A DNA stretch of 64,000 nucleotides from Candidatus Saganbacteria bacterium. Lineage in GTDB: Bacteria; Margulisbacteria; WOR-1; XYC2-FULL-46-14; XYC2-FULL-37-10. The position numbers were made by a program, and so were the translations under genes. Positions 18,924 through 59,820 of the stretch are shown in pieces. The first letter of the stretch is position 1. Each line of letters opens with the position of its first letter. The notes beneath the pieces were generated by a model. That model did not search any database and was not told where the DNA came from. It was given only the letters and a program-made list of their open reading frames with translations. The DNA is taken from NCBI GenBank assembly GCA_016223245.1, contig JACRPL010000013.1, positions 1-64,000 of the forward strand, read 5' to 3'.

Positions 18924-20084
18924 TTATGAATAAGCCTTTCCTATCGCTCTTTCCAGGATTTCGATCTGGTCTGAAACTTCCGCAAGCCCTATAGACAACC
19001 TGACCATACCTTTATCAATTCCCCATTTTTTCTTTTCTTCGGCCGAGACAGTCGCGTGGGTGCCAAGGAAAGGCATTTCGATCAAAGATTGGTTTCCGCC
19101 TAAGCTTACCGCATGGGAAATAATCCCTTGCCCGTTCTTAGCGACATGGTCGACGATTGCCCTTGCTTTCTTTTCTCTTTCATCAGCATTTCGTCCTTCG
19201 GGAATAAAACAGATCATATAGCCTGGCGCAAATTTTCCATCCCAATCCGTAAGTAAGCGGCGGGCATTATCTTTGAAAGCATAATTTGGAAGCCCGGGAT
19301 ATATAGTTTCACTAACATGGTCATTTGAATTTAAGCATTCCGCAACTACTTGAGCGCTTGCTTGCATTGTTGCATATCTGCCATACAAAGAAGGAAGTCC
19401 GCGAGTTAATAAATGGTGCACCTGATCAGGAGATGAAATTCCTCCGGTATTCTTCCTGAAAAGGAAAAGATCCTTCCAAGAAGTTTTTGGCATCACAACG
19501 ACACCGGCCATTTCCTGTAAAAATCCTCCTAGAACCTTTGTCCCGGAATGAACAACAATATCGGCTCCATGCAGAAGAGGGTTGCATCCGGCAGGACCCG
19601 GAAAAGTATTATCAACTACAACTACTATGTTTGGATTTTGGCCGTGAGCCAAACGCGATATCGCTTCCAGATCGTAAACTCTTAAATTAGGATTGGTTTC
19701 CGTTTCAAAATAGACGACCTTTGTTTTTGGATTCAATATTTCCAAAATATTTTGAGGGTTTGATAGATCGATCTCATGGACAACAAATCCGCGGTTAACT
19801 CGTGCGACGCCCGAAACGCCGAAATAATTATCTGTACATCCGTACAAAGGTTTTGCGACAGCAACTTCATCTCCTGGTCTTAAACCAAATTCCACAGCTG
19901 AAGTTATGGCGCGCATGCCATCGCTAAAAGTCAGGCCCCAATAATTATCGTGGCGGACGCCTTCGGCGACGGGAACATCATGGACAACGCTAACTGACCT
20001 AGAACCTCTTGGGATCCTTGGGGCGGAAAGCATCTGCATCGCGGTATTGCGGTGAACTTCATAAAGCCTTCTTTCTAATCTCAT
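18924..20084 (-). CDS. PLP-dependent Cys/Met metabolism enzyme (cystathionine/methionine gamma-lyase family)
   Basis: Protein of 386 residues from ATG 20084. An upstream in-frame ATG at 20156 would start inside the divergent pfkA start and promoter, so it is rejected. Family features: FSDGMRAITSAVEFGLRPGDEVAV, YFETETNPNLRVYDLEAI, VVDNTFPGP and the PLP lysine in IVVHSGTKVLGGF, followed by SLGGNQSLIEMP near the C-terminus. Members cleave or form cystathionine or release methanethiol from methionine. Sequence alone does not settle which. It leads the minus-strand block ending in add. Confidence 0.85.
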   Translation of the reverse strand: MRLERRLYEVHRNTAMQMLSAPRIPRGSRSVSVVHDVPVAEGVRHDNYWGLTFSDGMRAITSAVEFGLRPGDEVAVAKPLYGCTDNYFGVSGVARVNRGFVVHEIDLSNPQNILEILNPKTKVVYFETETNPNLRVYDLEAISRLAHGQNPNIVVVVDNTFPGPAGCNPLLHGADIVVHSGTKVLGGFLQEMAGVVVMPKTSWKDLFLFRKNTGGISSPDQVHHLLTRGLPSLYGRYATMQASAQVVAECLNSNDHVSETIYPGLPNYAFKDNARRLLTDWDGKFAPGYMICFIPEGRNADEREKKARAIVDHVAKNGQGIISHAVSLGGNQSLIEMPFLGTHATVSAEEKKKWGIDKGMVRLSIGLAEVSDQIEILERAIGKAYS

Positions 20085-20142
20085 AATTTTATCTCGCAAG
20101 TTATTTATAATAATTTCACATGATTTTAATTTATTTTGGAAG

Positions 20143-20148
20143 TATAAT
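20143..20148 (+). promoter_or_regulatory. -10 box for leaderless pfkA transcript
   Basis: TATAAT (20143-20148) ends 6 bases before ATG 20155 and no Shine-Dalgarno lies between. No extended TG is present in this case. The divergent PLP-enzyme gene starts at 20084, so about 70 bases hold both promoters. Confidence 0.6.
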
Positions 20149-20154
20149 ATCCCC

Positions 20155-21129
20155 ATGGCAACAAAAATAAAAAATATCGCAGTAGTGACTCCTGGAGGCG
20201 ACGCTCCGGGAATGAATGTTGCGATACGCGCGGTCGTCAGATACGCTATATATCATGGCTTGGATGTTTACGGTATCCAAAGAGGCTGGCAGGGACTTAT
20301 CGAAGGCAATATTATAAGCCTTGATCTTAAATCGGTTGGCGGCATTATCAATCGCGGAGGGACTATCCTCCATACCCACAGGAGTTCGGGCTTCAGAAAA
20401 AGATCGCTCCGCAAAACTGCATATCAAAACCTTAAGGCATTTAACATTGATGCAATGGTCGTTATCGGCGGAGACGGGTCGCTTAAAGCTTCCTATGAAT
20501 TTTATAAAGAATATAATTTCCCGATCATAAATGTCCCCGCATCGATCGACAATGATATATACGGAACAGATTACAGCATAGGGTTTGATACTGCTGTCAA
20601 CACAGCGGTTGAAGCGATCGATAAAATAAGAGATACCGCGACATCGCACGAAAGGGCTTTTATAATCGAAGTTATGGGGCGAAATAATGGTTTTATAGCA
20701 CTAGACGTAGGAATGACGGCCGGCGCCGAAGCAATACTTATCCCGGAAATTAAATACGATCTTGCTGCCATTGCAAAAAGATTGCTCCTCGGCCAGCAGA
20801 GAGGGAAGACAAGTTTTATTATTGTTGTTGCGGAAGGGGCGGGACATGCGCCCGATATCGCAAAACTTATCCAAAAGAAGACAAAGCTCGATGTAAGGGT
20901 AAGTATTTTGGGCCATATGCAAAGAGGCGGATCTCCAACAGCGCTATCAAGAGAAGCCGCCTGCAAACTTGGCTCAAAAGCTGTTGAACTTCTGCTTCAA
21001 GGCAAAAAAGCTATGATGGTAGGGATCATATCAGATAAGGTCGTATCGCATAGCGCCAAAGAAATAATAGCCAAGAAAAAGAAAATAGATATCGAGGCCT
21101 ATAAACTAGCCGAAATTCTTTCCTCATGA
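20155..21129 (+). CDS. pfkA: 6-phosphofructokinase, ATP-type
   Basis: Protein of 324 residues, standard bacterial length. Motifs: TPGGDAPGMNVAIRAVVR, VIGGDGSLKA (about 104-111, Gly in the position that marks ATP-dependent enzymes), VPASIDNDIYGTDYSIGFDTAVNTAVEAIDKIRDTA and VEVMGRNNGF-like EVMGRNNGFIAL. Phosphorylates fructose 6-phosphate. The Ser in ASIDND replaces the usual Gly/Thr, so donor preference is inferred. Probably leaderless. A second phosphofructokinase of different type lies at 21407. Confidence 0.93.
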   Translation: MATKIKNIAVVTPGGDAPGMNVAIRAVVRYAIYHGLDVYGIQRGWQGLIEGNIISLDLKSVGGIINRGGTILHTHRSSGFRKRSLRKTAYQNLKAFNIDAMVVIGGDGSLKASYEFYKEYNFPIINVPASIDNDIYGTDYSIGFDTAVNTAVEAIDKIRDTATSHERAFIIEVMGRNNGFIALDVGMTAGAEAILIPEIKYDLAAIAKRLLLGQQRGKTSFIIVVAEGAGHAPDIAKLIQKKTKLDVRVSILGHMQRGGSPTALSREAACKLGSKAVELLLQGKKAMMVGIISDKVVSHSAKEIIAKKKKIDIEAYKLAEILSS

Positions 21130-21406: not shown

Positions 21407-22615
21407 TCAATAGAAATCAACAGAGTTGCGCATTTTGAAAAGTTGATGGTCTTCGGGTACGAACTTCCCGCCGTGAACCTCTGTTAGATCGTTTGGAACA
21501 ATATTTTCTCCCGCAAGGCCAGGGTATACGCCAAAATTTCCGGATTTCATATAATCGAATATCGCATCGCCAAATCTTAGGCCTAATATCCTGTCTGATA
21601 CATGCGCGATACCGCCGCGAATGGCGTGGCCGCAATTTTGAAGCCTGAAATCTGTGCCTTTGATATGCTTTTGGAATATGCCGTAGAAATATTCGCCAAT
21701 TCCGCCCAATTGTTCATTGCCGAAAGAATCCTTTTTCTTTGGAAGATCAAAGATCGCTTTGACTATAGCAAACTTTGGATCGGCAATAACTTCGTCTAAA
21801 AGTTTCTTATTGCTGTCATTGATCTCTTTAGGAAACCTGGTATCAAATATTCGAGCGCCTTCGGATACTACAACAACGCAATATTTTTGGAATGCCATCG
21901 CGTGCTCGACTTTTTTAATAACTTCTCTTAGATCAACTGTTTCTTCGGGAAGAATTACTACATCGGCGCCGCCGGCGATACCCGCGTGAAGCGCTACCCA
22001 TCCGGCATGGCGTCCCATAACTTCAACTATGAAACATCGATTGTGTGAACGAGAAGTTGTAATAATGTTTTCGATAAAGTGGACGCTTTCAATTACAGCC
22101 GAATCGAATCCGTATGTGCGCTCGGTTCCAAAAACATCGTTATCCATTGTCTTTGGCGCGCCAAACATTGGGAATGTGAATTGTTTGCCCATTTTGCCGG
22201 CGGCTCCCAAGGTATCGTCTCCACCAAGAACAACCAAACAATCCATTCCAAGCTTCTTCAAATTCTCGATCGCTTTTTCCGGTGCCTTCTTCTCAATATT
22301 TTCTTTAGAGAATAAATTTGTTCGAGATGATTTAATAATTGTCCCAGCGACTTTAAAGCTATCTTTTAGATCGACTGTCGAAAGTTTTTGGAGGATCTTG
22401 TCTTTTTCGGTTTCAGGATCGCGAGTTAGAGATTCCCAACCTTCGAGCAGACCCCAAAGTTCGATCTTTTCATCAGCCGGAAGGGCAGCGTTTGCAAGAT
22501 TTATGCGTCGAAGCAAACCATAAATTACCGCGTTATGACCCGCGCAATCGCCTCCACCTGTTAGTATCCCGATCTTTCTGATATTTATTTCTTTCCCTTG
22601 AAATTTTACTTTCAT
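21407..22615 (-). CDS. Phosphofructokinase, PPi-type active site
   Basis: Protein of 402 residues. It starts KIGILTGGGDCAGHNAVIYGLLRR and carries VLGGDDTLGAAGKMG (GGDD at 131-134) and FGAPKTMDNDVFGTERTYGFDSAV (PKTMDND at 154-160), followed by EVMGRHAGWVALHAG. Asp in GGDD and Lys in PKTMDND are the residues that in characterised enzymes block ATP and allow pyrophosphate as donor. So this is likely a reversible PPi-dependent enzyme, or one of mixed specificity. It is at the end of a deaD-tpiA-fba series on the minus strand. A Shine-Dalgarno (GAGAGG) precedes the ATG. Confidence 0.88.
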   Translation of the reverse strand: MKVKFQGKEINIRKIGILTGGGDCAGHNAVIYGLLRRINLANAALPADEKIELWGLLEGWESLTRDPETEKDKILQKLSTVDLKDSFKVAGTIIKSSRTNLFSKENIEKKAPEKAIENLKKLGMDCLVVLGGDDTLGAAGKMGKQFTFPMFGAPKTMDNDVFGTERTYGFDSAVIESVHFIENIITTSRSHNRCFIVEVMGRHAGWVALHAGIAGGADVVILPEETVDLREVIKKVEHAMAFQKYCVVVVSEGARIFDTRFPKEINDSNKKLLDEVIADPKFAIVKAIFDLPKKKDSFGNEQLGGIGEYFYGIFQKHIKGTDFRLQNCGHAIRGGIAHVSDRILGLRFGDAIFDYMKSGNFGVYPGLAGENIVPNDLTEVHGGKFVPEDHQLFKMRNSVDFY

Positions 22616-23698: not shown

Positions 23699-24448
23699 TT
23701 ACCCCCTCACAATTTTTGCGAATACATCGGCCTTAAGAGACGCCCCGCCGACGAGTCCACCGTCAATATCACCTTGTGCCATAAGATCTTTAATATTTTC
23801 AGGAGTGACCGATCCGCCGTAAAGGATGCGAACGGTATCAGATATTGACTTATCATAAAGGTCAGTTACAAGCTTTCTTATAAACGCATGAACTTCTTGA
23901 GCTTGTTCTTTTGATGCGGTCTTTCCGGTCCCGATCGCCCATACTGGTTCGTAAGCGATAACTAATGTCTGGCAGCTAGCAACTGGCAAGCCTTGAAGGG
24001 CGCCGGTTACTTGCTTTTTAATAACATCAAAGGTTACGTTTTTTTCTCTTTCAGCTAATGTTTCACCGACACAAACGATCGGTTTAAGGCAATGTTTAAG
24101 TGCGGTATTTAATTTCTTGTTGACTGTTTCATCTATTTCTCCGAAAAATTGTCTTCGTTCGGAGTGGCCGATGAGAACACAGCTCGCGCCGACTGATTTA
24201 AGCATTTGGGCTGAAACCTGGCCAGTGAAAGCGCCTTTCTCTTCCCAAAAAAGATCTTGTCCGCCGACCATAATTTCCGAATCGCGCAATACATCGGATA
24301 CAGATGAGAGCGCTGTAAATGGAGGGCATACGAGAATATCTTTATCTGTTACTTTTCCTACGAGTTTGTTGAGATCTGCGGCTAATTGGACCGATTCCTG
24401 AAGTATAGTGTTCATTTTCCAGTTTCCCGCTAGCAGTGGTTTTCTCAT
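23699..24448 (-). CDS. tpiA: Triosephosphate isomerase
   Basis: Protein of 249 residues, normal length. Motifs: GNWKMN near the start (active Lys), CVLIGHSERRQFFGE (catalytic His), the active Glu in VIAYEPVWAIGTGKTAS and the phosphate-binding LYGGSVTPENI and GGLVGGASLK. Interconverts the two triose phosphates made by the neighbouring aldolase. GGAGA precedes the ATG by about 7 bases. It follows the helicase gene by 12 bases on the same strand. Confidence 0.97.
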   Translation of the reverse strand: MRKPLLAGNWKMNTILQESVQLAADLNKLVGKVTDKDILVCPPFTALSSVSDVLRDSEIMVGGQDLFWEEKGAFTGQVSAQMLKSVGASCVLIGHSERRQFFGEIDETVNKKLNTALKHCLKPIVCVGETLAEREKNVTFDVIKKQVTGALQGLPVASCQTLVIAYEPVWAIGTGKTASKEQAQEVHAFIRKLVTDLYDKSISDTVRILYGGSVTPENIKDLMAQGDIDGGLVGGASLKADVFAKIVRG

Positions 24449-24460
24449 TAATTATCTCCT

Positions 24461-25669
24461 TTATCTTCTTCTTCGCGGGGAGCGGAATCTGTAATGGGGC
24501 TTGTTTGCGGCCGAGGCGGAGCCGAAAAATCCTGTAGAATGGAATTCGGGATGTTGCGAGATAGGGAGGGCGTTCCTGATCAATCTTTCGATATTTTTGA
24601 CCTCTCCGCGCTGGTCGGGCGTTGCGAAAGATATTGCGCGGCCTTCGTGGCCGGCCCTGGCTGTCCGGCCGATCCTGTGGACATAATTTTCGGGATCATC
24701 CGGAAGGTCGTAATTTACCACGAGCTCGATCCCTTTGACATCTATGCCCCGCGCCGCGATATCAGTCGCGACAAGTATCCTGTATTTCCCGGTCTTAAAA
24801 CCTTCAAGCGCTTCGCGCCGCTGGCTCAAGGACCTGTTTGAATGTATCTCGGCTGATGAAAACCCCGCAGTCCTTAGGCCGGAGGTTATGACCGATGCGG
24901 CCCGTTTTGTCCTTGAGAAAATTAGGACGGTCCCGCGATACTGCTCCAAAAGCTTGATTAACAGCTTCGGTTTTTCTTCTTTTTTGATAATGAACAATTC
25001 CTGCGTGACTTTTTCAGCGGCGGTGCCCGAACGGGCAATTTCAACGCTTATCGGGAGTTTCATATGGGAAGTTGCGATCTTAACGATCTTTTCGGGGATC
25101 GTGGCCGAAAAAAGCATTGTTTGGCGTTCTCTTTGCAGCTGCGCTAATATCTTTTCAATTTGCGGAGCAAACCCCATATCAAGCATCCTATCGGCTTCAT
25201 CCAAAACAAGGATCGAAACATTGTCCAGCCTAAGTATTTTTTGGTTTAAATGGTCGAGAAGCCTTCCCGGCGTTGCGATTATTACTCGGGGATTCCTGCG
25301 CAATGAATTGATCTGGTGGTACATTGACGCGCCGCCGATCAATACGGCTGTCTTCATGCCGAATGGATAGCAAAGCTTGTAAATTGTTTCTTCAACCTGT
25401 ATTGCAAGCTCCCTAGTAGGGACAAGTACCAGTCCGCGAGAGAGGTTTTGGGAAAGCCTTTGGATCATCGGGATGCCGAAAGCAAGCGTCTTGCCAGTCC
25501 CTGTTTGTGCTATACCTATAATGTCGTTGCCTTCGACGGCGATAGGTATTGCTTTATGCTGGATCGGTGTTGGGACAGAAAACTTCATCCGCTCCAGGAG
25601 TTCTAGTATCTTTGGGGAAATGCCTAAGCCATAAAAAGAGCTTCCATTTGCTTGATTCTGCATGTTCAT
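24461..25669 (-). CDS. DEAD-box RNA helicase
   Basis: Protein of 402 residues with all core motifs: Q motif (FSVPTPIQHKAIP), I AQTGTGKT, Ia PTRELAIQ, II VLDEADRMLDMGF, III SAT, IV-VI (ATDIAARGIDV, HRIGRTARAG). A short basic tail (RFRSPRRRR) follows, as in RhlE-type helicases. Likely remodels rRNA or mRNA. The start is predicted to be leaderless: on the minus strand TGGTATAAT ends 6 bases before the ATG. It is the first gene of a series with tpiA and fba. Confidence 0.93.
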   Translation of the reverse strand: MNMQNQANGSSFYGLGISPKILELLERMKFSVPTPIQHKAIPIAVEGNDIIGIAQTGTGKTLAFGIPMIQRLSQNLSRGLVLVPTRELAIQVEETIYKLCYPFGMKTAVLIGGASMYHQINSLRRNPRVIIATPGRLLDHLNQKILRLDNVSILVLDEADRMLDMGFAPQIEKILAQLQRERQTMLFSATIPEKIVKIATSHMKLPISVEIARSGTAAEKVTQELFIIKKEEKPKLLIKLLEQYRGTVLIFSRTKRAASVITSGLRTAGFSSAEIHSNRSLSQRREALEGFKTGKYRILVATDIAARGIDVKGIELVVNYDLPDDPENYVHRIGRTARAGHEGRAISFATPDQRGEVKNIERLIRNALPISQHPEFHSTGFFGSASAANKPHYRFRSPRRRR

Positions 25670-25675
25670 CTATGT

Positions 25676-25684
25676 ATTATACCA
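25676..25684 (-). promoter_or_regulatory. Extended -10 for leaderless helicase transcript
   Basis: On the minus strand TG-G-TATAAT occupies 25684-25676 and ends 6 bases before ATG 25669. The plus strand over the same bases reads TATTAT, so a divergent promoter for the metallopeptidase gene may overlap it. Confidence 0.6.
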
Positions 25685-27005: not shown

Positions 27006-27011
27006 TATAAT
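27006..27011 (+). promoter_or_regulatory. -10 box of leaderless nuclease gene
   Basis: TATAAT (27006-27011) ends 6 bases before ATG 27018; TTGTCC at 26981-26986 could be a weak -35 at 19 bases spacing. No Shine-Dalgarno. Confidence 0.55.
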
Positions 27012-27017
27012 TACGCC

Positions 27018-27779
27018 ATGTCCAAATATTATAATCCAAACCGAACACGAAATATTTTTGATCCGGCATCGGAGGAGCCGTACAAATTGAGCCGGTCAAA
27101 GCTTGAGCAATTCGTAAACTGCCCGCGCTGTTTCTACCTCGATCGCCGACTCGGCATCGGCCAACCACCGGGATTCCCTTTCTCCCTCAATAGCGCCGTT
27201 GACGCGCTTTTAAAAAATGAGTTCGATCACTATCGCCGTGAACATAAACCGCACCCTCTAATGACACAATATAAACTCGATGCTATTCCATACGACCATA
27301 AAGATATCGACATCTGGCGCGATGCGCTCAAAGCCGGCATCTGCCACTACCATAAAGAAACAAACCTAATGATAACAGGCGGGGTGGATGATGTTTGGAT
27401 AAACCCTCAAGAAGAACTAATAATTGTCGACTATAAAAGCACTTCAAAAGACGGACAAATTACCGCCCTCGATCAAGAATGGCAGAACGGCTATAAAAGA
27501 CAAATGGAAATATACCAGTGGCTCTTTAGATGCAATAACTATAAAGTGAACAAAACTGGGTATTTCGTTTATTGTAACGGCGATTCCAAAAAAGAACGCT
27601 TCGACGGACACCTCGTGTTTGATATAACTCTCATTCCTCATATTGGCGACGATTCTTGGGTCGAACACGTGGTGGTAGATGCGAAAAAGTGTCTCATGAG
27701 CGAAACAATACCCGAGGCTAATCTTGAGTGTGATTATTGTCGATATAGTGATGCGTTATTTGGCAATATATCCCGATGA
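27018..27779 (+). CDS. PD-(D/E)XK nuclease, Cas4/RecB-like with four cysteines
   Basis: Protein of 253 residues. Cys35 and Cys38 (NCPRCFYLD) and Cys238 and Cys241 (CDYCRY) match the iron-sulfur cluster layout of Cas4/AddB nucleases. The catalytic core has GGVDDVW (Asp124/125), IVDYKS (Asp138, Lys140) and the RecB motif QMEIY (Gln162, Tyr166). Likely a single-strand DNA exonuclease. No CRISPR or cas gene is adjacent, so it is a stand-alone member. The 3' end overlaps the convergent fic gene by 24 bases. Confidence 0.8.
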   Translation: MSKYYNPNRTRNIFDPASEEPYKLSRSKLEQFVNCPRCFYLDRRLGIGQPPGFPFSLNSAVDALLKNEFDHYRREHKPHPLMTQYKLDAIPYDHKDIDIWRDALKAGICHYHKETNLMITGGVDDVWINPQEELIIVDYKSTSKDGQITALDQEWQNGYKRQMEIYQWLFRCNNYKVNKTGYFVYCNGDSKKERFDGHLVFDITLIPHIGDDSWVEHVVVDAKKCLMSETIPEANLECDYCRYSDALFGNISR

Positions 27780-28811
27780 AGGACCTTTGCCAACTTGCTT
27801 GATCATGCCAAGTTTCTTCAATTTTTGCAGCTGTAGCTGAGCGGTTCTTTTTGGAGTACTAAGTATATCAGCCGCATCACTCGCAGTGATCCTGCCAACT
27901 TGATCCATAAAGTCTAAAATCATAAGTTGATTTCCATCCAAGTAGACTTTTGATCCGATATCGGGCCGTACTTTTTTCAATGATAATACAACGATTTTAT
28001 TTTTAACATCGTCGATCTCTTCCTTAAAACCTTTAACAAAGTATTCCAGCCAAGAAGTAAAATCGCGTTGCCTTTCTTTGTAGTTTTCCCCGATATTGAT
28101 GGCTTTATAATATTCCTGGCGATCGCGATTATAATAATCTTCCAGCGCAAATAAATGACGGAAATCATAGCCCCTGCTATATAGAATAAGAGTTGCAAGA
28201 GCCCGAGCTGTTCGGCCATTACCATCGTTGAAAGGATGGATCGCGGCAATTTCCTGATGGGCTATCCCGGCTGTTATCACAGGATTGATCCCTTCTTTCT
28301 CACTTTGTTGAAGCCACTTTATTAGATCGTTGCACAATCCAACAACCTTTCTTGCTTCCGGCCCCGTATATACAATTTTCTCGGGCTGGCCAAAACTTCG
28401 GCGTACAACAAAGATCGGGCCTTTTCTATAATTACCGGAATGTTGTTTGGCTAAAGTTCGATCGGTCACCAGCTTGTGAATATTGAGCAGAATCTTATCT
28501 GTGATCAGCTGTTTTCCCTGAACGATCTTTTCGATATATCGTAAAGCACTTATATAATTCTGCACTTCAAATATGTCGCGGTCGGAAGCGCCAACTTTCT
28601 TCTTGGCCAGAACCGCTTCAACATCGCGGACTCCCAGCCGATTCCCTTCGATCGCAGTCGAACTATGCGTCATCCTCACCAGTGCCTGGCGTCGAAGCCG
28701 CAGCTCCTGCTTGGGTAAGATCTTGGCGCGATCGATGACCGCTTTGGCCTCGGCGATCGCAATAAGCATTTTCACTATATTGTTCGTTAGTTTATATTTC
28801 GGGGCAAACAT
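27756..28811 (-). CDS. Fic-domain protein, class II, with winged-helix tail
   Basis: Protein of 351 residues. Catalytic motif HPFNDGNGRTAR at 192-203. The autoinhibitory motif STAIEG (residues 51-56, S/T-x-x-x-E-G/N) lies N-terminal, which defines class II Fic proteins. The C-terminal ~75 residues (ITASDAADILSTPKRTAQLQLQKLKKLG) form a winged helix-turn-helix. Fic enzymes AMPylate target proteins; the DNA-binding tail suggests autoregulation. Upstream are a TGATATAAT leaderless promoter and four 11-bp repeats (28838-28881) that include the -35 region. Confidence 0.92.
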   Translation of the reverse strand: MFAPKYKLTNNIVKMLIAIAEAKAVIDRAKILPKQELRLRRQALVRMTHSSTAIEGNRLGVRDVEAVLAKKKVGASDRDIFEVQNYISALRYIEKIVQGKQLITDKILLNIHKLVTDRTLAKQHSGNYRKGPIFVVRRSFGQPEKIVYTGPEARKVVGLCNDLIKWLQQSEKEGINPVITAGIAHQEIAAIHPFNDGNGRTARALATLILYSRGYDFRHLFALEDYYNRDRQEYYKAINIGENYKERQRDFTSWLEYFVKGFKEEIDDVKNKIVVLSLKKVRPDIGSKVYLDGNQLMILDFMDQVGRITASDAADILSTPKRTAQLQLQKLKKLGMIKQVGKGPSSGYIAK

Positions 28812-28817
28812 AGCTAT

Positions 28818-28826
28818 ATTATATCA
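28818..28826 (-). promoter_or_regulatory. Extended -10 for leaderless fic transcript
   Basis: Minus strand TG-A-TATAAT (28826-28818) ends 6 bases before ATG 28811. TTGCGC lies 18 bases upstream of the TATAAT and belongs to the first of the 11-bp repeats. Confidence 0.7.
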
Positions 28827-29802: not shown

Positions 29803-30429
29803 CTATTCTTTCATCTGGGGAAGGATGTACCTGGTCGAGCGGCCGGCGCCTTCGCTTTTAACTATCGCTTTATCATCAAGCATTGTGAGCTCAATATGCG
29901 CGGTTTTGTGAGAAACATTAAAAGCTTCCCTGTACTCTCTGTTAGTGATGCTTCCGTGTTCCTGCATTAATATGAGAGCGCGAAGCTGCCGCTTGTTGAG
30001 GCCTTTGCCGCCCCAAGGGTTTGTGATCGATTTTTCTTCGTCTTCTTTAGCGGGGCGCGATTCGCCGGCGTCGCGAAGATAACAGATATCATCTGTCTTA
30101 TATGGCTTCTCGTCGCCTTCGCACACAGTAATTACGGCGACTTTTTTACCGCCGCGGTCCATTACTTCAACTGTCGGTATGATTTTAGGAGTACAGCAAT
30201 TTTCGGCCAAGTCCTTGACCCATGTCTTGAACTCGTCGATATCTGGAATTTCGACCCCGATAAGGTGTTTATTTTTGTCGTCAAGACCTAAAACGATCTT
30301 GCCGCCGTCGGAGTTCGCGAACGCAACAATATCTCGCGACAAATCTTCGGGGGTAGGGATCTGTTTTTCGAATTCTACAGATTGTCCTTCGCCTTGTTCG
30401 AGCAGGGTGATGATTTCTTCCCAATTCAT
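29803..30429 (-). CDS. AlbA_2 (Schlafen-type) domain protein with HTH
   Basis: Protein of 208 residues from ATG 30429. EQGEGQSVEFEKQIPTPEDLSRDIVAFANSDGGKIVLGLDD is the AlbA_2 putative nucleic-acid-binding/ATP-like domain. The C-terminal third (LNKRQLRALILMQEHGSITNREYREAFNVSHKTAHIELTML) is a winged helix. Such proteins are regarded as transcription regulators. The start is supported by a minus-strand TGATATCAT ending 7 bases before the ATG; the longer frame to 30465 would run through this promoter. Confidence 0.8.
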   Translation of the reverse strand: MNWEEIITLLEQGEGQSVEFEKQIPTPEDLSRDIVAFANSDGGKIVLGLDDKNKHLIGVEIPDIDEFKTWVKDLAENCCTPKIIPTVEVMDRGGKKVAVITVCEGDEKPYKTDDICYLRDAGESRPAKEDEEKSITNPWGGKGLNKRQLRALILMQEHGSITNREYREAFNVSHKTAHIELTMLDDKAIVKSEGAGRSTRYILPQMKE

Positions 30430-30436
30430 TATCACT

Positions 30437-30446
30437 ATGATATCAT
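30437..30446. promoter_or_regulatory. Palindromic bidirectional extended -10
   Basis: The palindrome ATGATATCAT (30437-30446) reads TGATATCAT on both strands. It ends 7 bases before ATG 30429 on the minus strand and 7 bases before TTG 30454 (13 before ATG 30460) on the plus strand. Two divergent, nearly leaderless transcripts would overlap in their -10 boxes, so they probably compete. Confidence 0.55.
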
Positions 30447-31086: not shown

Positions 31087-31117
31087 TATACTTTATTCAA
31101 ATTCACGGAGGTATAAA

Positions 31118-31498
31118 ATGCAAATAAACATACAAGCCCACCATACGGAATTGACCGCGCCGATCAGGTCCTATGCGACAAAAAAGATAGAAAAGCTGCA
31201 AGAATATTATAAGAACATCTTGAAAGCCGAGATAACGCTCGAAGTTAGGGCGAACGACGATACAAGGCGCAACCAGGTCACGGAAGTCACACTCTGGGTC
31301 TCGGGCAAAAAGGTCATAAGAGCCTCGGACGGAGCAAAGAATATTTACGCGGCGATAGACCTTGTTGAAGAGGAACTAAAGAAACAATTAAAAAAGCACA
31401 AAGATAAGCACATCAAAGAAGCAAGAAGGTCGGCAGAAAAAATAAAATCTAAATTTAGAAAGCCCGGAAAAATTGGACTAGCCGAGTCCTTACTTTAA
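31118..31498 (+). CDS. hpf: Ribosome hibernation promoting factor, short form
   Basis: Protein of 126 residues with the HPF/YfiA fold: [34 protein letters not shown], then [29 protein letters not shown]. The C-terminal dimerisation domain of long HPF is absent; a basic tail replaces it. It binds the 30S channel and silences ribosomes in stationary phase. GGAGG at 31107-31111 sits 6 bases before the ATG, and TATACT at 31087-31092 may be the -10, so it is leadered. Directly followed by secA. Confidence 0.93.
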
Positions 31499-38555: not shown

Positions 38556-39305
38556 TTGATAGAACAAATAAAACTGGCTGATGTTATTGTAGACAATGTA
38601 ACAATGGCGGAAGCTTTGGATAAACTTCAAGAGCTTATCGCATCGAAGGTTCCAAGCATTATCGTCACCCCCAACCCCGAAATCATAGTTTCCTCACAAA
38701 ACGACCCAGAACTTAAGGCAATAATAAACAACGCAGACCTAAGATTGCCAGATGGAATCTCTATGGTTGTAGTAAGCAAGATACTAGGTTCGCCTCTTAA
38801 AGAGAGGGTATCGGGCATTGATTTCCTGCTGGCCTCGTGCAAGCTTGCCGAAAATAGGGGCTGGAGCATATATCTTCTTGGAAGTTCAGAAACAGTTGTG
38901 AAAAAAACGGCTGAGAATCTTCAGGTCCAATTCCCCAAATTAAAGATCGCGGGATATCATAATGGGTTTTTTAATACTAAAGAAGAAGAAAGCTCAATCA
39001 TCACCTCCATAGCCAACATAAAACCGACTATCGTTTTTGTAGGGCTAGGGGCAGGAAGACAGGAGCGGTGGCTCGCAAAAAACATGAAAGGCATAGGCTC
39101 CTCGACTGCGCTCGGGGTAAACTCCGGCGTAGGAATAGGAGTGGGTGGGAGTTTTGACGTTATTTCTGGACTAAAAAAACGAGCACCTGTTATATATCAG
39201 AAACTTTATATCGAATGGCTTTATCGCTTAATAACCGAGCCGCAGAGGTGGAAGAGGCAATTGGCGTTACCGAGGTTCTTGTGGTTGACGTTGATAAAAA
39301 GATGA
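38556..39305 (+). CDS. WecG/TagA-family glycosyltransferase
   Basis: Protein of 249 residues from TTG 38556 (GGTGATGA upstream acts as a weak ribosome site). Conserved block: TPNPEIIVSSQNDPELKAIINNADLRLPDGISMV, RVSGIDFLLASCKLAE, WSIYLLGSSETVVKKTAENL, VGLGAGRQERWLAKN and GVGGSFDVISGLKKRAP. Family members add N-acetylmannosamine to undecaprenyl-PP-GlcNAc in teichoic-acid or enterobacterial-antigen synthesis. Last gene of the DUF5693-csaB-marC cluster, which together suggests a pyruvylated secondary cell-wall polymer. Confidence 0.9.
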   Translation: MIEQIKLADVIVDNVTMAEALDKLQELIASKVPSIIVTPNPEIIVSSQNDPELKAIINNADLRLPDGISMVVVSKILGSPLKERVSGIDFLLASCKLAENRGWSIYLLGSSETVVKKTAENLQVQFPKLKIAGYHNGFFNTKEEESSIITSIANIKPTIVFVGLGAGRQERWLAKNMKGIGSSTALGVNSGVGIGVGGSFDVISGLKKRAPVIYQKLYIEWLYRLITEPQRWKRQLALPRFLWLTLIKR

Positions 39306-39311
39306 TATAAT
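39303..39311 (+). promoter_or_regulatory. Extended -10 for leaderless MNT-HEPN gene
   Basis: TG-A-TATAAT (39303-39311) ends 6 bases before ATG 39318 and overlaps the wecG stop codon. No Shine-Dalgarno. Confidence 0.7.
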
Positions 39312-39317
39312 TCCCAT

Positions 39318-39878
39318 ATGAAAGAAGAAATTGTCGAGAAATTAAAAGATCTATTCGCTTCGAAGAAAGAGATTTCGATGGCTTTCCTTTTTGGGTCACA
39401 GGCAACAGGAAAAACAACTTCTGAATCCGATATCGATGTAGCTGTTTGGTTTTCAAAAAATGTTGAGCTCAATGAGATCGATAGGCTTTGGCTGGAGATC
39501 GAATCTTTGCTGCACAATAACGTCGATCTAATTATTCTTAATCAAGCCAACCCAAATACCGCATGGGCGGCTATGCGGGGAATAACTCTTAAGATCACGG
39601 ATTATCGCTTATATTACATAGATATTTGCAAGATACTGCTTGCAGGCGAAGATATCGAGATGCCCAACAGCTATAGGGAAGTCATATTGAAACTAGCGGA
39701 AATGAAAATTTTAACGCTTGGAAAGGTCGAAAAGATAGCCGATTATGCCAATCTGCGGAATATTTTGGCTCACCAATATCTTGATATTAAGTGGGATAAG
39801 ATCAGATCGTTTATTGCCAATGCATTGGATGATTATAACGAATTTATTGCGATCATTTCAAAGAAGATAGGGATTTGA
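39318..39878 (+). CDS. MNT nucleotidyltransferase fused to truncated HEPN domain
   Basis: Protein of 186 residues. Residues 20-75 are a minimal nucleotidyltransferase: GSQATG (26-31), SDIDVAV with Asp38 and Asp40, and the third Asp at 70. Residues about 115-182 match the end of a HepT toxin, including RNILAHQY (Arg147, His152, Tyr154), the RX4HXY RNase and AMPylation motif. In known MntA-HepT modules these are two proteins and MntA AMPylates the HepT tyrosine; here they are one chain and the first HEPN helices are missing. Activity is uncertain. The end overlaps the convergent frameshifted gene by 21 bases. Confidence 0.75.
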   Translation: MKEEIVEKLKDLFASKKEISMAFLFGSQATGKTTSESDIDVAVWFSKNVELNEIDRLWLEIESLLHNNVDLIILNQANPNTAWAAMRGITLKITDYRLYYIDICKILLAGEDIEMPNSYREVILKLAEMKILTLGKVEKIADYANLRNILAHQYLDIKWDKIRSFIANALDDYNEFIAIISKKIGI

Positions 39879-40788: not shown

Positions 40789-40797
40789 TGATATAAT
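40789..40797 (+). promoter_or_regulatory. Extended -10 for leaderless DUF5674 gene
   Basis: TG-A-TATAAT (40789-40797) ends 6 bases before ATG 40804. No Shine-Dalgarno is present. Confidence 0.7.
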
Positions 40798-40803
40798 AAC
40801 CTT

Positions 40804-41145
40804 ATGAAAATCATCGAAGATGCAATCTCAATTTCCGAATTGAAACAAATGGCCGAGAAAGGGTTTGGGAACTTCGTTAAAGCTGTTGTTGATATTGAAA
40901 GAAATATAATGGCAGTCGACGCTGAGTTGCATGCCGACGAGGAATCTCTTCTTCTTGAAAATGGATCCAAACAATCGAATTTGTGGGGTATAAATATTTA
41001 TCCTGAAAACAAAAAACAAGAATGGATCGAGTTTGATTCTATGATAAATCTCAAACCATCTCTTGGCAATCGCACAAGAAGCATCCAAGACCAAGCAATA
41101 AAAGACACGATCACTCAAATTGTTCACAATATTGTTACACCATGA
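40804..41145 (+). CDS. DUF5674 family protein
   Basis: Protein of 113 residues matching the DUF5674 pattern: MKIIEDAISISELKQMAEKG, FVKAVVDIERNIMAVDAELHADEESLLLENGSKQSNLWGINIYPE and WIEFDSMINLKPSLGNRTRSI. The conserved E-x-H-A-D-E-E and WGIN motifs could form an active site, but the function is unknown. It overlaps the next gene by 4 bases (ATGA), so the two are coupled. Confidence 0.85.
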   Translation: MKIIEDAISISELKQMAEKGFGNFVKAVVDIERNIMAVDAELHADEESLLLENGSKQSNLWGINIYPENKKQEWIEFDSMINLKPSLGNRTRSIQDQAIKDTITQIVHNIVTP

Positions 41146-41582: not shown

Positions 41583-41591
41583 TGTTATAAT
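41583..41591 (+). promoter_or_regulatory. Extended -10 upstream of second MNT gene
   Basis: TG-T-TATAAT (41583-41591) ends 8 bases before ATG 41600 with no Shine-Dalgarno (the bases between are pyrimidine-rich). Predicted leaderless or nearly so. Confidence 0.6.
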
Positions 41592-41599
41592 TTCCTCCA

Positions 41600-41950
41600 A
41601 TGGTAGAAGAAAAAGGAACAAACTTAGAACCGCCTGTTAATTCAAGATTATTAAAAGAAATAACTAGGAGAATAGTCGCAAAGATCGATCCGGAAAAGAT
41701 CATACTTTTCGGATCACATGCCTACGGCAATCCAAACAAAGATAGCGATCTCGACCTATTTATCATAAAAAACACGAAATTACCCGCCAGCAAAAGATAC
41801 GCGATGATAAGCGATGCTCTCTTCCCAAGGCTCGTTCCAATGGATTTCATTGTAAGGGCCCCTAAGGAGATCGATTCTCGCCTTAAAGGTTTTGATCCAT
41901 TTATTAAGGAAGTGCTAAATAAAGGGAAAACTTTATATGAAAGGAAATAA
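41600..41950 (+). CDS. Minimal nucleotidyltransferase (MNT)
   Basis: Protein of 116 residues: IILFGSHAYGNPNKDSDLDLFII holds the GS...G and D-x-D nucleotidyltransferase motif, and PMDFIVRAP gives the third Asp. The partner HEPN gene overlaps its end by 14 bases. MNT/HEPN pairs work as antitoxin/toxin, with the MNT partner AMPylating or binding the HEPN RNase. Confidence 0.85.
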   Translation: MVEEKGTNLEPPVNSRLLKEITRRIVAKIDPEKIILFGSHAYGNPNKDSDLDLFIIKNTKLPASKRYAMISDALFPRLVPMDFIVRAPKEIDSRLKGFDPFIKEVLNKGKTLYERK

Positions 41951-47458: not shown

Positions 47459-47493
47459 AATTTCTCGCAAAATCTGCCGATATATAATAATAT

Positions 47494-49230
47494 ATGAAAA
47501 ATATCGGTTCTTTGTGCTCAGAACCTGAGACTGAAGTCTCGGTTCCTCGCATATCTATAAAGAAAAATGGAACCGCGAATTCATTCGCAGGTTCCATTTT
47601 CAAAATGCTATTTATTTTCATCTTATCTTTTTCAACTTTATTTATTTTGGCCGGATGCGGGGTCGACTCGAACAAATATACAATAAGATCAATAACGCTA
47701 TCGCCATCTAACGCCCAAATATTTTCAACAAAAACACAGCAATTTACATGCAAAGCCCTTTATGGTGACGGTATGCAGCGCGATTTTTTTGGCGCATCTT
47801 TTGCTGTAGATATTCCAAGTTCTGGTATAATTGATAAAAATGGGCTTTTTACAGCGTCTAATACAAACGCAACGATCGAAGCTACGATTACTGCGGCTTA
47901 TGGGAATTTAATGGCAAGCGCTGAAATTACAGTGAGCCCGGAAATTACAACAAAAGAAGCGGTTGCTTTGGTAAATACGCCGGAAGTTCCGCAAAACCTT
48001 GCCGTTTCAAATATAACCCCCTACACAGCGAAAATTACAATTAGCGGCGGCGCTGACGGCTATATCCTGTCATTTGGTTTAGATGAAGCGGCATCAAATT
48101 CCGGCCTGATCGAAGCTATGAGCAATACAATCCCATTGTCAGGCCTCCCGTCAAATTCGGAGATATTTTTCAAAGCTAAAGCTTTTAAATACGCGGATAC
48201 AGGGCGCATATACAGCAATTATTCGAATATTTCAAGCTTTGATACCGCAAATTATCCCATTAAATTCGATATTTTGGAAAACAAGATCATTGATGACAAA
48301 GGAAATACAATAATTTTCCGCGGCGTCAATATATTGGACCCTGCATGGATGGATTTGATCTATAAAAATATCGATGATAAATATTTTTCAGCGCTTGCGT
48401 CATGGAAAGTAAAAATAATTAGGGTCCCGATACATCCGGCAGCTTATAAATATTACGGCAGTACCGCATACCTTAAGATACTGGATAAAGTATTGGACCT
48501 TGCCGCATCGCATGAAATATATGCGATATTAGACTATCATTCCATAGGATTTCCGCCTGAAGGTGAATATATGGGTCTAACAGGAACAGATACGCCATGG
48601 ACAGGATCGATATATGCGTATACAATCCAAGAATTGATAGATTTCTGGAAAATCATTGCCGAACATTATAAGAACGACAATAGAGTTGTGTTTTATGAGC
48701 TTTTTAATGAGCCTACAAAGACCAATTTACCTATAACTGATTCTACCGACAATCTAATAACCGGAAGCTCATTGGATAAGATATCATGGGGCTTATGGAA
48801 AGCCCAAGCTGAAATTTTAGTTGATATTATAAGAAATATTAACGAAAATGCAAAGATCATAGTAGGGGGGATAAATTATTCTTATGACCTATCGTATGCA
48901 CTGAAAGATCCCGTAAACAGGCCAAAGATTGTCTATGGCACGCATCCATACCCGAATCAATCAATGAGCTCGGACACCGCATTTGGCAATTTAGTGTCAA
49001 AATACCCGGTTTTTGCTACCGAATTCGGCTATGCTCCGGGAGCCGCGGGCAAACATTACCAAGGTGATGATGTATACGGAACTCAAATTATCCAGTATTT
49101 AGAGGGCAAGAAAATAGGATGGACGGCTTGGAACTTTAGTACAGAATGGTTTCCGTCATTGTTATTAGACTGGGATTATAATACGACCGCGTCGGGTAGT
49201 TTGTTCAAAAATCTTCTCAAGTCGCACTAA
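47494..49230 (+). CDS. GH5 glycoside hydrolase lipoprotein
   Basis: Protein of 578 residues. A signal peptide (FKMLFIFILSFSTLFILAGC) ends in lipobox LAGC with Cys55, so it is exported and lipidated. Next come a bacterial Ig-like domain (about 60-145, ITLSPSNAQIFST), an FN3-like domain (about 160-250) and a GH5 cellulase-type barrel (from about 265; GNTIIFRGVNI). Catalytic acid Glu406 is in FYELFNEP; nucleophile Glu510 is in FATEFGYAPG. Residues 10-36 before the hydrophobic core are encoded by two family A palindromes, so the n-region is abnormally long. TATAAT at 47483-47488 ends 5 bases before ATG 47494. The ATG at 47605 would give a normal-length signal peptide. Confidence 0.85.
   Translation: MKNIGSLCSEPETEVSVPRISIKKNGTANSFAGSIFKMLFIFILSFSTLFILAGCGVDSNKYTIRSITLSPSNAQIFSTKTQQFTCKALYGDGMQRDFFGASFAVDIPSSGIIDKNGLFTASNTNATIEATITAAYGNLMASAEITVSPEITTKEAVALVNTPEVPQNLAVSNITPYTAKITISGGADGYILSFGLDEAASNSGLIEAMSNTIPLSGLPSNSEIFFKAKAFKYADTGRIYSNYSNISSFDTANYPIKFDILENKIIDDKGNTIIFRGVNILDPAWMDLIYKNIDDKYFSALASWKVKIIRVPIHPAAYKYYGSTAYLKILDKVLDLAASHEIYAILDYHSIGFPPEGEYMGLTGTDTPWTGSIYAYTIQELIDFWKIIAEHYKNDNRVVFYELFNEPTKTNLPITDSTDNLITGSSLDKISWGLWKAQAEILVDIIRNINENAKIIVGGINYSYDLSYALKDPVNRPKIVYGTHPYPNQSMSSDTAFGNLVSKYPVFATEFGYAPGAAGKHYQGDDVYGTQIIQYLEGKKIGWTAWNFSTEWFPSLLLDWDYNTTASGSLFKNLLKSH
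47521..47600. repeat. Two family A palindromes inside the GH5 signal region
   Basis: Copy 1 (47521-47545): arms GAACC-T-GAGACT and AGTCTC-GGTTC with a 2-base loop. Copy 2 (47564-47600): arms AAAATGGAACCGCGAAT and ATTCGC-A-GGTTCCATTTT with loop TC. The one-base bulge lies beside the GG/CC end in both; the cores differ in sequence yet pair. Confidence 0.85.
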
Positions 49231-58019: not shown

Positions 58020-58966
58020 TATTTTTTCCTGGTAATAACAGACTTTACGGCTGCAACTATATCTTGAGGCGTTAATCCATATTTGACAAGCAATTCTGCT
58101 GGCTTTCCCGATTCCCCAAATGTGTCTTTGACGCCCACACGCACAACGGGGACGGGATACGTTTCGCACAACACCTCCACAACCGCGCTACCCAGCCCCC
58201 CAATTATAGAATGTTCTTCTGCCGTCACAACTGCGCCTGTTTTTTTTGAGCTCTTAATTATCAATGCTTTGTCGATCGGCTTTATTGTGTGCAGGTTAAT
58301 TACTTCAGCGGATATCTTTTTATCTTTTAATATTTTTGCGGCTTCGAGCGCGGCATCAACCATGATCCCGCATGAAAATATTGTCACATCTTTGCCTTCT
58401 TGCAGAACTATCCCCTTGCCAAGTTTAAAATTGATCTTTTCGTTCTCATATATCACAGGTGTAGCCAACCGGGAAAGCCTTACATAGGCAGGCCCGTGCA
58501 GTTCAGCAACTGCCCTGATCGCGGCGGCAGTTTCTATTGCATCGCATGGAGCTACAACTGTCATATTGGGAAGAGGCCTCATTATAGCTATATCTTCGTT
58601 TGCTTGGTGAGAAGCTCCATCTTCGCCTGTTGTTATCCCGCCGTGGGTTACGACAACTTTAACGTTAAGCCTTGTATAAGCACACATCATCCTTATCTGG
58701 TCCCAAGCCCTGCCCGATCCAAATACCGCGAATGTTGAAGCAAAAGCGATCTTTCCGGCTGCCGCCAATCCAGCGGCTGTTGAGATCATGTCTTGTTCAG
58801 CGACTCCCATATCAAAAAATCTTTCAGGAAAAAGTTTCGCAAAGTTCACAGTTTTCGTCGAGGCCGAAAGATCCGCATCCAATACCACAATATTTTGGTT
58901 TTCCGCTCCAAGAGCGGCCAATGTCTTGCCGTATGCATCCCGTGTCGCGATCAATTGTTTAGCCAT
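58019..58966 (-). CDS. Transketolase, C-terminal half (split)
   Basis: Protein of 315 residues: Pyr and C-terminal domains. It starts [31 protein letters not shown], and carries [45 protein letters not shown] and [17 protein letters not shown]. With the partner gene it makes a two-chain transketolase, as in archaea and many uncultured bacteria. It overlaps the N-terminal-half gene by 8 bases. Confidence 0.93.
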
Positions 58967-59804
58967 TATTTTTAAAACACTCGCAAAGTTCGCTTAAAGC
59001 TTGCGCTTCCTCTTCTTTTGTGGGGGCTTTCCCGTGAAAATCGAGCGGTTTCGCTTCCATGAACGATACGCCTTTCCCTTTTACAGTGTCAGCAATGATC
59101 ACTGTCGGCGACCCCTTGATCTTTTCCGCTTCTTCAAAAGAAGCAATTATCGCATTGATTGAATGCCCGTCACATTTTAACACATGGAAACCAAACGCTT
59201 TGAATTTATCGGCTAGAGGCTCAATATTTTTGATATCCTCTACCCGGCCATCGATCTGATATTTGTTCCTGTCGACTATGACCGTCAAATTATCGAGCTT
59301 TTTATGCGAAGAGGTCATAGCGGCTTCCCAGATCTGGCCTTCTTGGCATTCGCCATCGCCTGTTAAACAATATATCCTATAAGATTTCTTGTCGAGACGC
59401 GCGGCTAACGCCATCCCGTTCGCGGCAGAAAGCCCCTGTCCCAATGATCCGGTTGATATTTCGATCCCCGGAAGCGAAAGCATATCGATATGTCCCTGAA
59501 GAGAGCTTCCAATCTGTCTTAATGTTTTAAGATATGATTTTGGGAAATATCCGGCTTCCGCAAGAGCCGCATAAAGTACCGGCGCTGCATGTCCCTTCGA
59601 CATCACAAACCTGTCGCGATCGGCCCATTTCGGCTCTTTTGGATCATGCCTCATTTTATGAAAATAGAGGACAGTTATGATGTCGGCAGCCGAAAGAGAC
59701 CCTCCTGGATGCCCCGATTGCGCACGGCAAGTCATTTCTATTATATGCTTGCGCAAAGTGTTGGCTTTAATTTCTAATTCTTTGAGTAATTCTTTCGAAA
59801 CCAT
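58959..59804 (-). CDS. Transketolase, N-terminal half (split)
   Basis: Protein of 281 residues with the TPP motif CLTGDGECQEGQIWEAAMTSSHKKLDNLTVIVDRNKYQIDG, plus GHPGGSLSAADIITVLYF and MSKGHAAPVLYAAL. Pentose-phosphate pathway enzyme with the next gene. The promoter TGATATCAT ends 7 bases before ATG 59804, with no Shine-Dalgarno, so the transcript is probably leaderless. Confidence 0.94.
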   Translation of the reverse strand: MVSKELLKELEIKANTLRKHIIEMTCRAQSGHPGGSLSAADIITVLYFHKMRHDPKEPKWADRDRFVMSKGHAAPVLYAALAEAGYFPKSYLKTLRQIGSSLQGHIDMLSLPGIEISTGSLGQGLSAANGMALAARLDKKSYRIYCLTGDGECQEGQIWEAAMTSSHKKLDNLTVIVDRNKYQIDGRVEDIKNIEPLADKFKAFGFHVLKCDGHSINAIIASFEEAEKIKGSPTVIIADTVKGKGVSFMEAKPLDFHGKAPTKEEEAQALSELCECFKNNG

Positions 59805-59811
59805 TTATAGA

Positions 59812-59820
59812 ATGATATCA
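59812..59820 (-). promoter_or_regulatory. Extended -10 for leaderless transketolase transcript
   Basis: Minus strand TG-A-TATCAT (59820-59812) ends 7 bases before ATG 59804. Same sequence as the divergent pair at 30437-30446. Confidence 0.6.

Follow-up and report, generated by a model that had tools for sequence, protein, structure and literature searches.

WOR-1 is a sister lineage of Cyanobacteria, and in the WOR-1 genome analysed here the gene for ATP-dependent 6-phosphofructokinase begins six bases behind a TATAAT hexamer, which raises the question of whether such genes are transcribed without a leader and how far this arrangement extends across the genome. The original prediction, drawn from the window (the whole stretch of DNA analysed, 64,000 nucleotides, bases 1-64000 of one contig), held that leaderless starts of this kind are widespread and lack a Shine-Dalgarno (SD) sequence, and that they form a second start mode favoured by solitary or first-in-operon genes. 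The genome, from Margulisbacteria, class WOR-1 (Saganbacteria), comprises 1.65 Mb in 24 contigs, with an estimated completeness of 100%. Its phosphofructokinase has the nearest named match in candidate division WOR-1 bacterium RIFOXYB2_FULL_37_13, at 72% identity.

Start-adjacent -10 elements in the window

Re-reading of the window sequence confirmed the spacing given for all 11 starts: six bases between TATAAT and the start codon in seven cases, eight in one, five in one, and seven bases behind TATCAT in two. An extended -10 TG, attributed to most of these sites, is present in 8 of the 11 (the exceptions are 20155, 27018 and 47494), and a usable SD was found at none of them. The GGTG found 15 bases upstream of 41600 is too distant; it precedes the -10 and would therefore be absent from the RNA. 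The sites are listed below, the spacer being the number of bases between hexamer and start codon.

6965..6982, + strand: TGATATAAT-tatttt-ATG, spacer 6; ORF 6980-7288, 102 aa, no family match
20143..20157, + strand: TATAAT-atcccc-ATG, spacer 6, no TG; ATP-dependent 6-phosphofructokinase, 20155-21129
25667..25684, - strand: TGGTATAAT-acatag-ATG, spacer 6; DEAD-box RNA helicase, 24461-25669
27006..27020, + strand: TATAAT-tacgcc-ATG, spacer 6, no TG; PD-(D/E)XK nuclease superfamily protein, 27018-27779
28809..28826, - strand: TGATATAAT-atagct-ATG, spacer 6; Fic-like protein, 27756-28811
30427..30445, - strand: TGATATCAT-agtgata-ATG, spacer 7 (TATCAT); AlbA_2/Schlafen-domain protein, 29803-30429
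39303..39320, + strand: TGATATAAT-tcccat-ATG, spacer 6; MntA-HepT-like fusion protein, 39318-39878
40789..40806, + strand: TGATATAAT-aacctt-ATG, spacer 6; DUF5674 protein, 40804-41145
41583..41602, + strand: TGTTATAAT-ttcctcca-ATG, spacer 8; MntA-like nucleotidyltransferase, 41600-41950
47483..47496, + strand: TATAAT-aatat-ATG, spacer 5, no TG; glycoside hydrolase family 5 protein, 47494-49230
59802..59820, - strand: TGATATCAT-tctataa-ATG, spacer 7 (TATCAT); N-terminal half of transketolase, 58959-59804

An SD is indeed present at each of the three genes that had been named for contrast.

1620..1641, + strand: nusA, SD GGAGG 6 bases before ATG; gene 1639-2760
31105..31120, + strand: hpf (S30AE domain), SD GGAGGT; gene 31118-31498
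24446..24465, - strand: tpiA, SD AAAGGAG; gene 23699-24448

Several of these loci have peculiarities of their own. The open reading frame of a PLP-enzyme gene (18924-20156, - strand) starts at 20156, sharing 2 bases with the start of the divergent phosphofructokinase gene, and would include the -10 of the latter; its true start is probably further in, for example at 20084. The 281-aa protein encoded at 58959-59804 (- strand) corresponds to transketolase models in their N-terminal part only, as in a split transketolase, and the 186-aa protein at 39318-39878 (+ strand) matches the MntA antitoxin in its first half and the HepT toxin in its second, as in a fused antitoxin-toxin pair.

Genome-wide signal and promoter character

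Codon usage alone, with no start signal used, called 1,404 genes on 1.64 Mb, and the sequences upstream of them were scanned for all 4096 hexamers at 31 spacers (0-30). An 814-kb sample chosen around contigs with hits was left out of the proportions, since it over-counts spacer 6. The top signal of the hexamer-by-spacer scan was TATAAT at spacer 6, present in 49 genes where 3.2 were expected (Poisson P ~4e-40) and outranking GGAGGA, AGGAGG and every other SD word; the same hexamer came next at spacers 8, 7 and 9 (23, 19 and 18 genes). Across the genome there are 34 instances of TGnTATAAT-N6-ATG, compared with one of the backward pattern and two at a spacing of 14. With a position matrix that includes the TG, a score of at least 6 was reached by 132 genes (6 in shifted controls) and a score of at least 3 by 188 (22 in shifted controls). 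The excess over controls amounts to 9-12% of genes, with about 130-170 carrying a start-adjacent -10 where about 6-22 would do so by chance, and a -10 ending 5-9 bases before the start codon is above chance genome-wide. A genome-wide peak at -6 to -12, on which the original prediction had staked itself, is present and exceeds every other upstream signal in the genome.

This start-adjacent element behaves as a genuine sigma-70 promoter, with a TG extension, a -35 and an initiator. With the upstream sequences aligned on the hexamer, what stood out most, apart from the TG region, was a TTG at 17-bp spacing, found in 29 of 132 genes as against 0-8 at other spacings. The -35 is better in those -10 elements that have no TG (mean 3.5 vs 2.9 matches, p = 0.002), the usual sigma-70 trade-off. 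Among the spacer-6 genes, 52 of 59 have C or T immediately before ATG, compared with 162 of 395 (41%) SD genes (p = 3e-12). Bacterial initiators in general favour a pyrimidine at -1 followed by a purine at +1, so that the A of ATG is the likely +1 position.

Genes that use the arrangement

Of the divergent first genes, 24% have a start-adjacent -10, as do 9% of the remaining first genes and 4% of those whose upstream neighbour is no more than 30 bases away, and the difference between divergent first genes (59/248) and tightly following genes (24/653) is pronounced (p = 4e-18). The predicted preference for genes that come first therefore holds for the first position in a directon; the preference for solitary genes does not, as a close same-strand gene follows 39 of 86 leaderless-like first genes and 211 of 461 others. 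The idea of two coexisting start modes was supported: SD-led genes occur alongside, and SD-led first genes have an excess of TATAAT 20-29 bases upstream. At that distance the promoter would give a short leader, just enough for an SD, which suggests that the same kind of promoter is used at two distances.

A minority of -10-adjacent genes lie inside gene strings. TATAAT directly follows the stop codon in 10 of 462 genes ending in TGA and in 2 of 942 ending in TAA or TAG (p = 5e-4). In the window, TGA 6965-6967 is both the stop of the upstream gene (6191-6967) and the source of the TG in the extended -10 of the next gene, and TGA 39303-39305 likewise ends the gene upstream of 39318-39878 and supplies the TG of its extended -10. 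The same doubling of stop and TG (TGATATAAT-N6-ATG), seen at 6965-6982 and 39303-39320 (+ strand), recurs in several further places of the genome. A possible, and still tentative, reading is that leaderless initiation is a constitutive, class-wide mode in WOR-1 and that the 18-bp TGA-TATAAT-N6-ATG module of stop, promoter and start may let genes within strings switch to a leaderless transcript of their own.

Start codons and recurrence among relatives

NCBIfam models place the N-terminus within residues 1-3 for eight genes with a -10 at spacers 5-9, namely those for RuvC, TsaD, YebC, riboflavin synthase, UMP kinase (PyrH), PdxJ, AroH and aspartate kinase; the family model of the phosphofructokinase at 20155-21129 begins at residue 6. 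ATG is the start codon in 123 of 132 -10-adjacent genes and in 1120 of 1267 others (p = 0.11), GTG and TTG starts being not significantly rarer among the former. The start of tsaD is fixed by the N-terminus MxILAIETSCDE, and its arrangement of -10 and ATG recurs in several relatives despite unalike flanks: TGCTATAAT-N7 (L145), TGCTATAAT-N6 (L157), TGATATAAT-N5 (L161) and TGGTAAAAT-N8 (L165), with TGATATTCT-N6 in another class (L169 and L170).

Among relatives of the same class, the spacing N6 outnumbers N14 in 30 of 30 genomes (691 vs 96). The other classes of the phylum are uneven: families f10 and f11 have a strong signal, in f13, f15 and f16 it is weak or lacking, and f18, f19 and f20 likewise seem to show hardly any or none at all.

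SD absence and the ribosome

An SD of at least 4 bases precedes 6 of 132 (4.5%) -10-adjacent genes, compared with 640 of 1267 others, and an SD of at least 5 bases precedes 2 of the 132. The predicted lack of an SD thus applies to nearly all of these genes, although most of it is a matter of space: when -10 elements were pasted into the upstream sequences of other genes, an SD of at least 4 bases was left in 11%, as the -10 occupies the SD position. A depletion beyond that imposed by space remains (p = 0.006). Strict exclusion of the SD by the -10, which the odds ratio of 0.05 made look dramatic, was set aside as mostly geometric on the strength of this pasting control.

The 16S rRNA ends in CACCTCCTTTCT, so the anti-SD is kept and leaderless use is not explained by a ribosome that lacks it; as an S1-like protein and S21 are both encoded in the genome, a ribosome deficient in these proteins was likewise rejected as the cause. 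The gene for the S1-like ribosomal protein (contig C4:29530-30888, + strand) has a -10 of its own (TGCTAAAAT) nine bases before ATG. The assembly has a single 16S rRNA gene (contig C12:5651-6991; L041:1501-2841, - strand), from which 9 bases are missing in the 530 loop (GTGCCAGCA) and about 170 bases between GGTTTAATTCGATGC and GATAACGTTAAG, both stretches being intact in relatives. These losses fall in universally conserved stretches and are most likely an assembly fault; a truncated 16S was for that reason rejected as a cause of leaderless use.

Probable leaderless transcription and alternative explanations

Taken together, the directly observed -10 signal, its position, promoter character, initiator, fixed start codons and class-wide recurrence make it very probable that sigma-70-type promoters are set so that transcripts start at or just before ATG, yielding leaderless mRNAs; where the 5' ends lie and how translation begins are what we infer from them. 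The promoters would be mostly of the extended -10 type (TGnTATAAT) with a weak -35, and RNA polymerase would start on the A of ATG at spacer 6 and up to about 3 bases before ATG at spacers 7-9. A transcript beginning there would have no leader and hence no room for an SD, and the ribosome would presumably bind the 5'-terminal AUG directly. How it might do so (as 70S or 30S, and with which factors) is taken by analogy from E. coli and other work (PMC9031893). On this model about 9-12% of genes, and about a quarter of divergent first genes, would be leaderless, the rest being SD-led or using other starts on the same anti-SD-bearing ribosome.

The stretch before the start could instead be an A/T-rich leader element, unstructured or S1-binding, that aids leadered mRNAs without an SD and is no promoter at all. 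In some phyla, an A/T-rich bias at -20 to -10 has been connected with S1 or with low structure (PMC5397173), and an S1-domain protein is encoded here. However, the signal consists of a single hexamer, fixed in sequence, orientation and spacing (34 vs 1 for its backward form), not general A/T-richness, and it is accompanied by the TG, the -35 TTG at 17 bp, the trade-off between TG and -35 and the pyrimidine at -1, which makes a leader element very unlikely. Also very unlikely is that the -10 elements are real but secondary, with longer upstream transcripts as the main product and leaderless RNA as a minor one: this would suit the 24 of 132 genes that have a same-strand gene no more than 30 bases upstream and the -10 elements that overlap an upstream stop codon, but most stand at the start of a directon, often a divergent one, with neither a second strong TATAAT upstream nor an SD that could serve a longer transcript. 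Misplaced start codons, with the true start downstream of an ordinary leader, have a negligible chance of accounting for the pattern. The choice of starts by codon usage is imprecise, and the start at 25669 (- strand) has another in-frame ATG 6 bases downstream; yet eight of the proposed start codons are fixed by family models, the peak at one spacing is sharp, and the downstream ATGs have no SD.

Comparison with known leaderless genes

Leaderless genes are already known in other bacteria, and as far as we found WOR-1 is a lineage new to them, in which the signal is particularly clean. TA-led genes were identified in 207 of 953 bacteria by Zheng et al. (2011; PMC3160421), with TAtaaT where genomic GC is middling and a TG peak where it is low. 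The arrangement described here is alike in that a signal resembling TATAAT precedes the start by about 10 bp and SD-led genes occur beside it, but Margulisbacteria/WOR-1 are absent from the groups for which that study lists leaderless genes. In Deinococcus, RpoD binds the -10 motif and expression depends on it (Zhong et al., PMC12340547); the -10-motif-led genes of Deinococcus-Thermus also have the motif 6-7 bp upstream of the ORF and run parallel to RBS-led genes, whereas their motif is TANNNT and covers about one third of genes, as compared with a full TATAAT, mostly with TG, a detectable -35 and about one tenth of genes in the WOR-1 genome. Mycobacteria similarly use leadered and leaderless modes side by side (PMC3898074, PMC4633059), with more than 20% of genes leaderless and GUG also efficient in M. 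smegmatis (reviewed in PMC9031893); their leaderless starts are experimentally mapped, in contrast to those of the present genome, which are predicted from sequence and are ATG in 123 of 132 genes. A search of the literature outside subscription journals found no paper joining leaderless genes and Margulisbacteria and, for CPR/Patescibacteria and uncultivated lineages, no title or abstract reporting leaderless genes.

A deep-branching uncultivated lineage beside Cyanobacteria would thereby join the bacteria with large-scale leaderless use, through a signal that can be read from genomes alone, and the arrangement offers a practical rule for start-codon correction and promoter calling in WOR-1 metagenome-assembled genomes. 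Exchanges of SD-led and leaderless starts between close relatives are open to comparison in families such as phosphofructokinase: this gene is SD-led in most relatives and leaderless-like in the present genome, which indicates that genes switch mode, and on this example the arrangement appears not to be conserved gene by gene. A second, distant gene of the phosphofructokinase family (21854-22585, - strand; 36% identity) is the convergent neighbour of 20155-21129 (+ strand), and the two stay near each other in several relatives.
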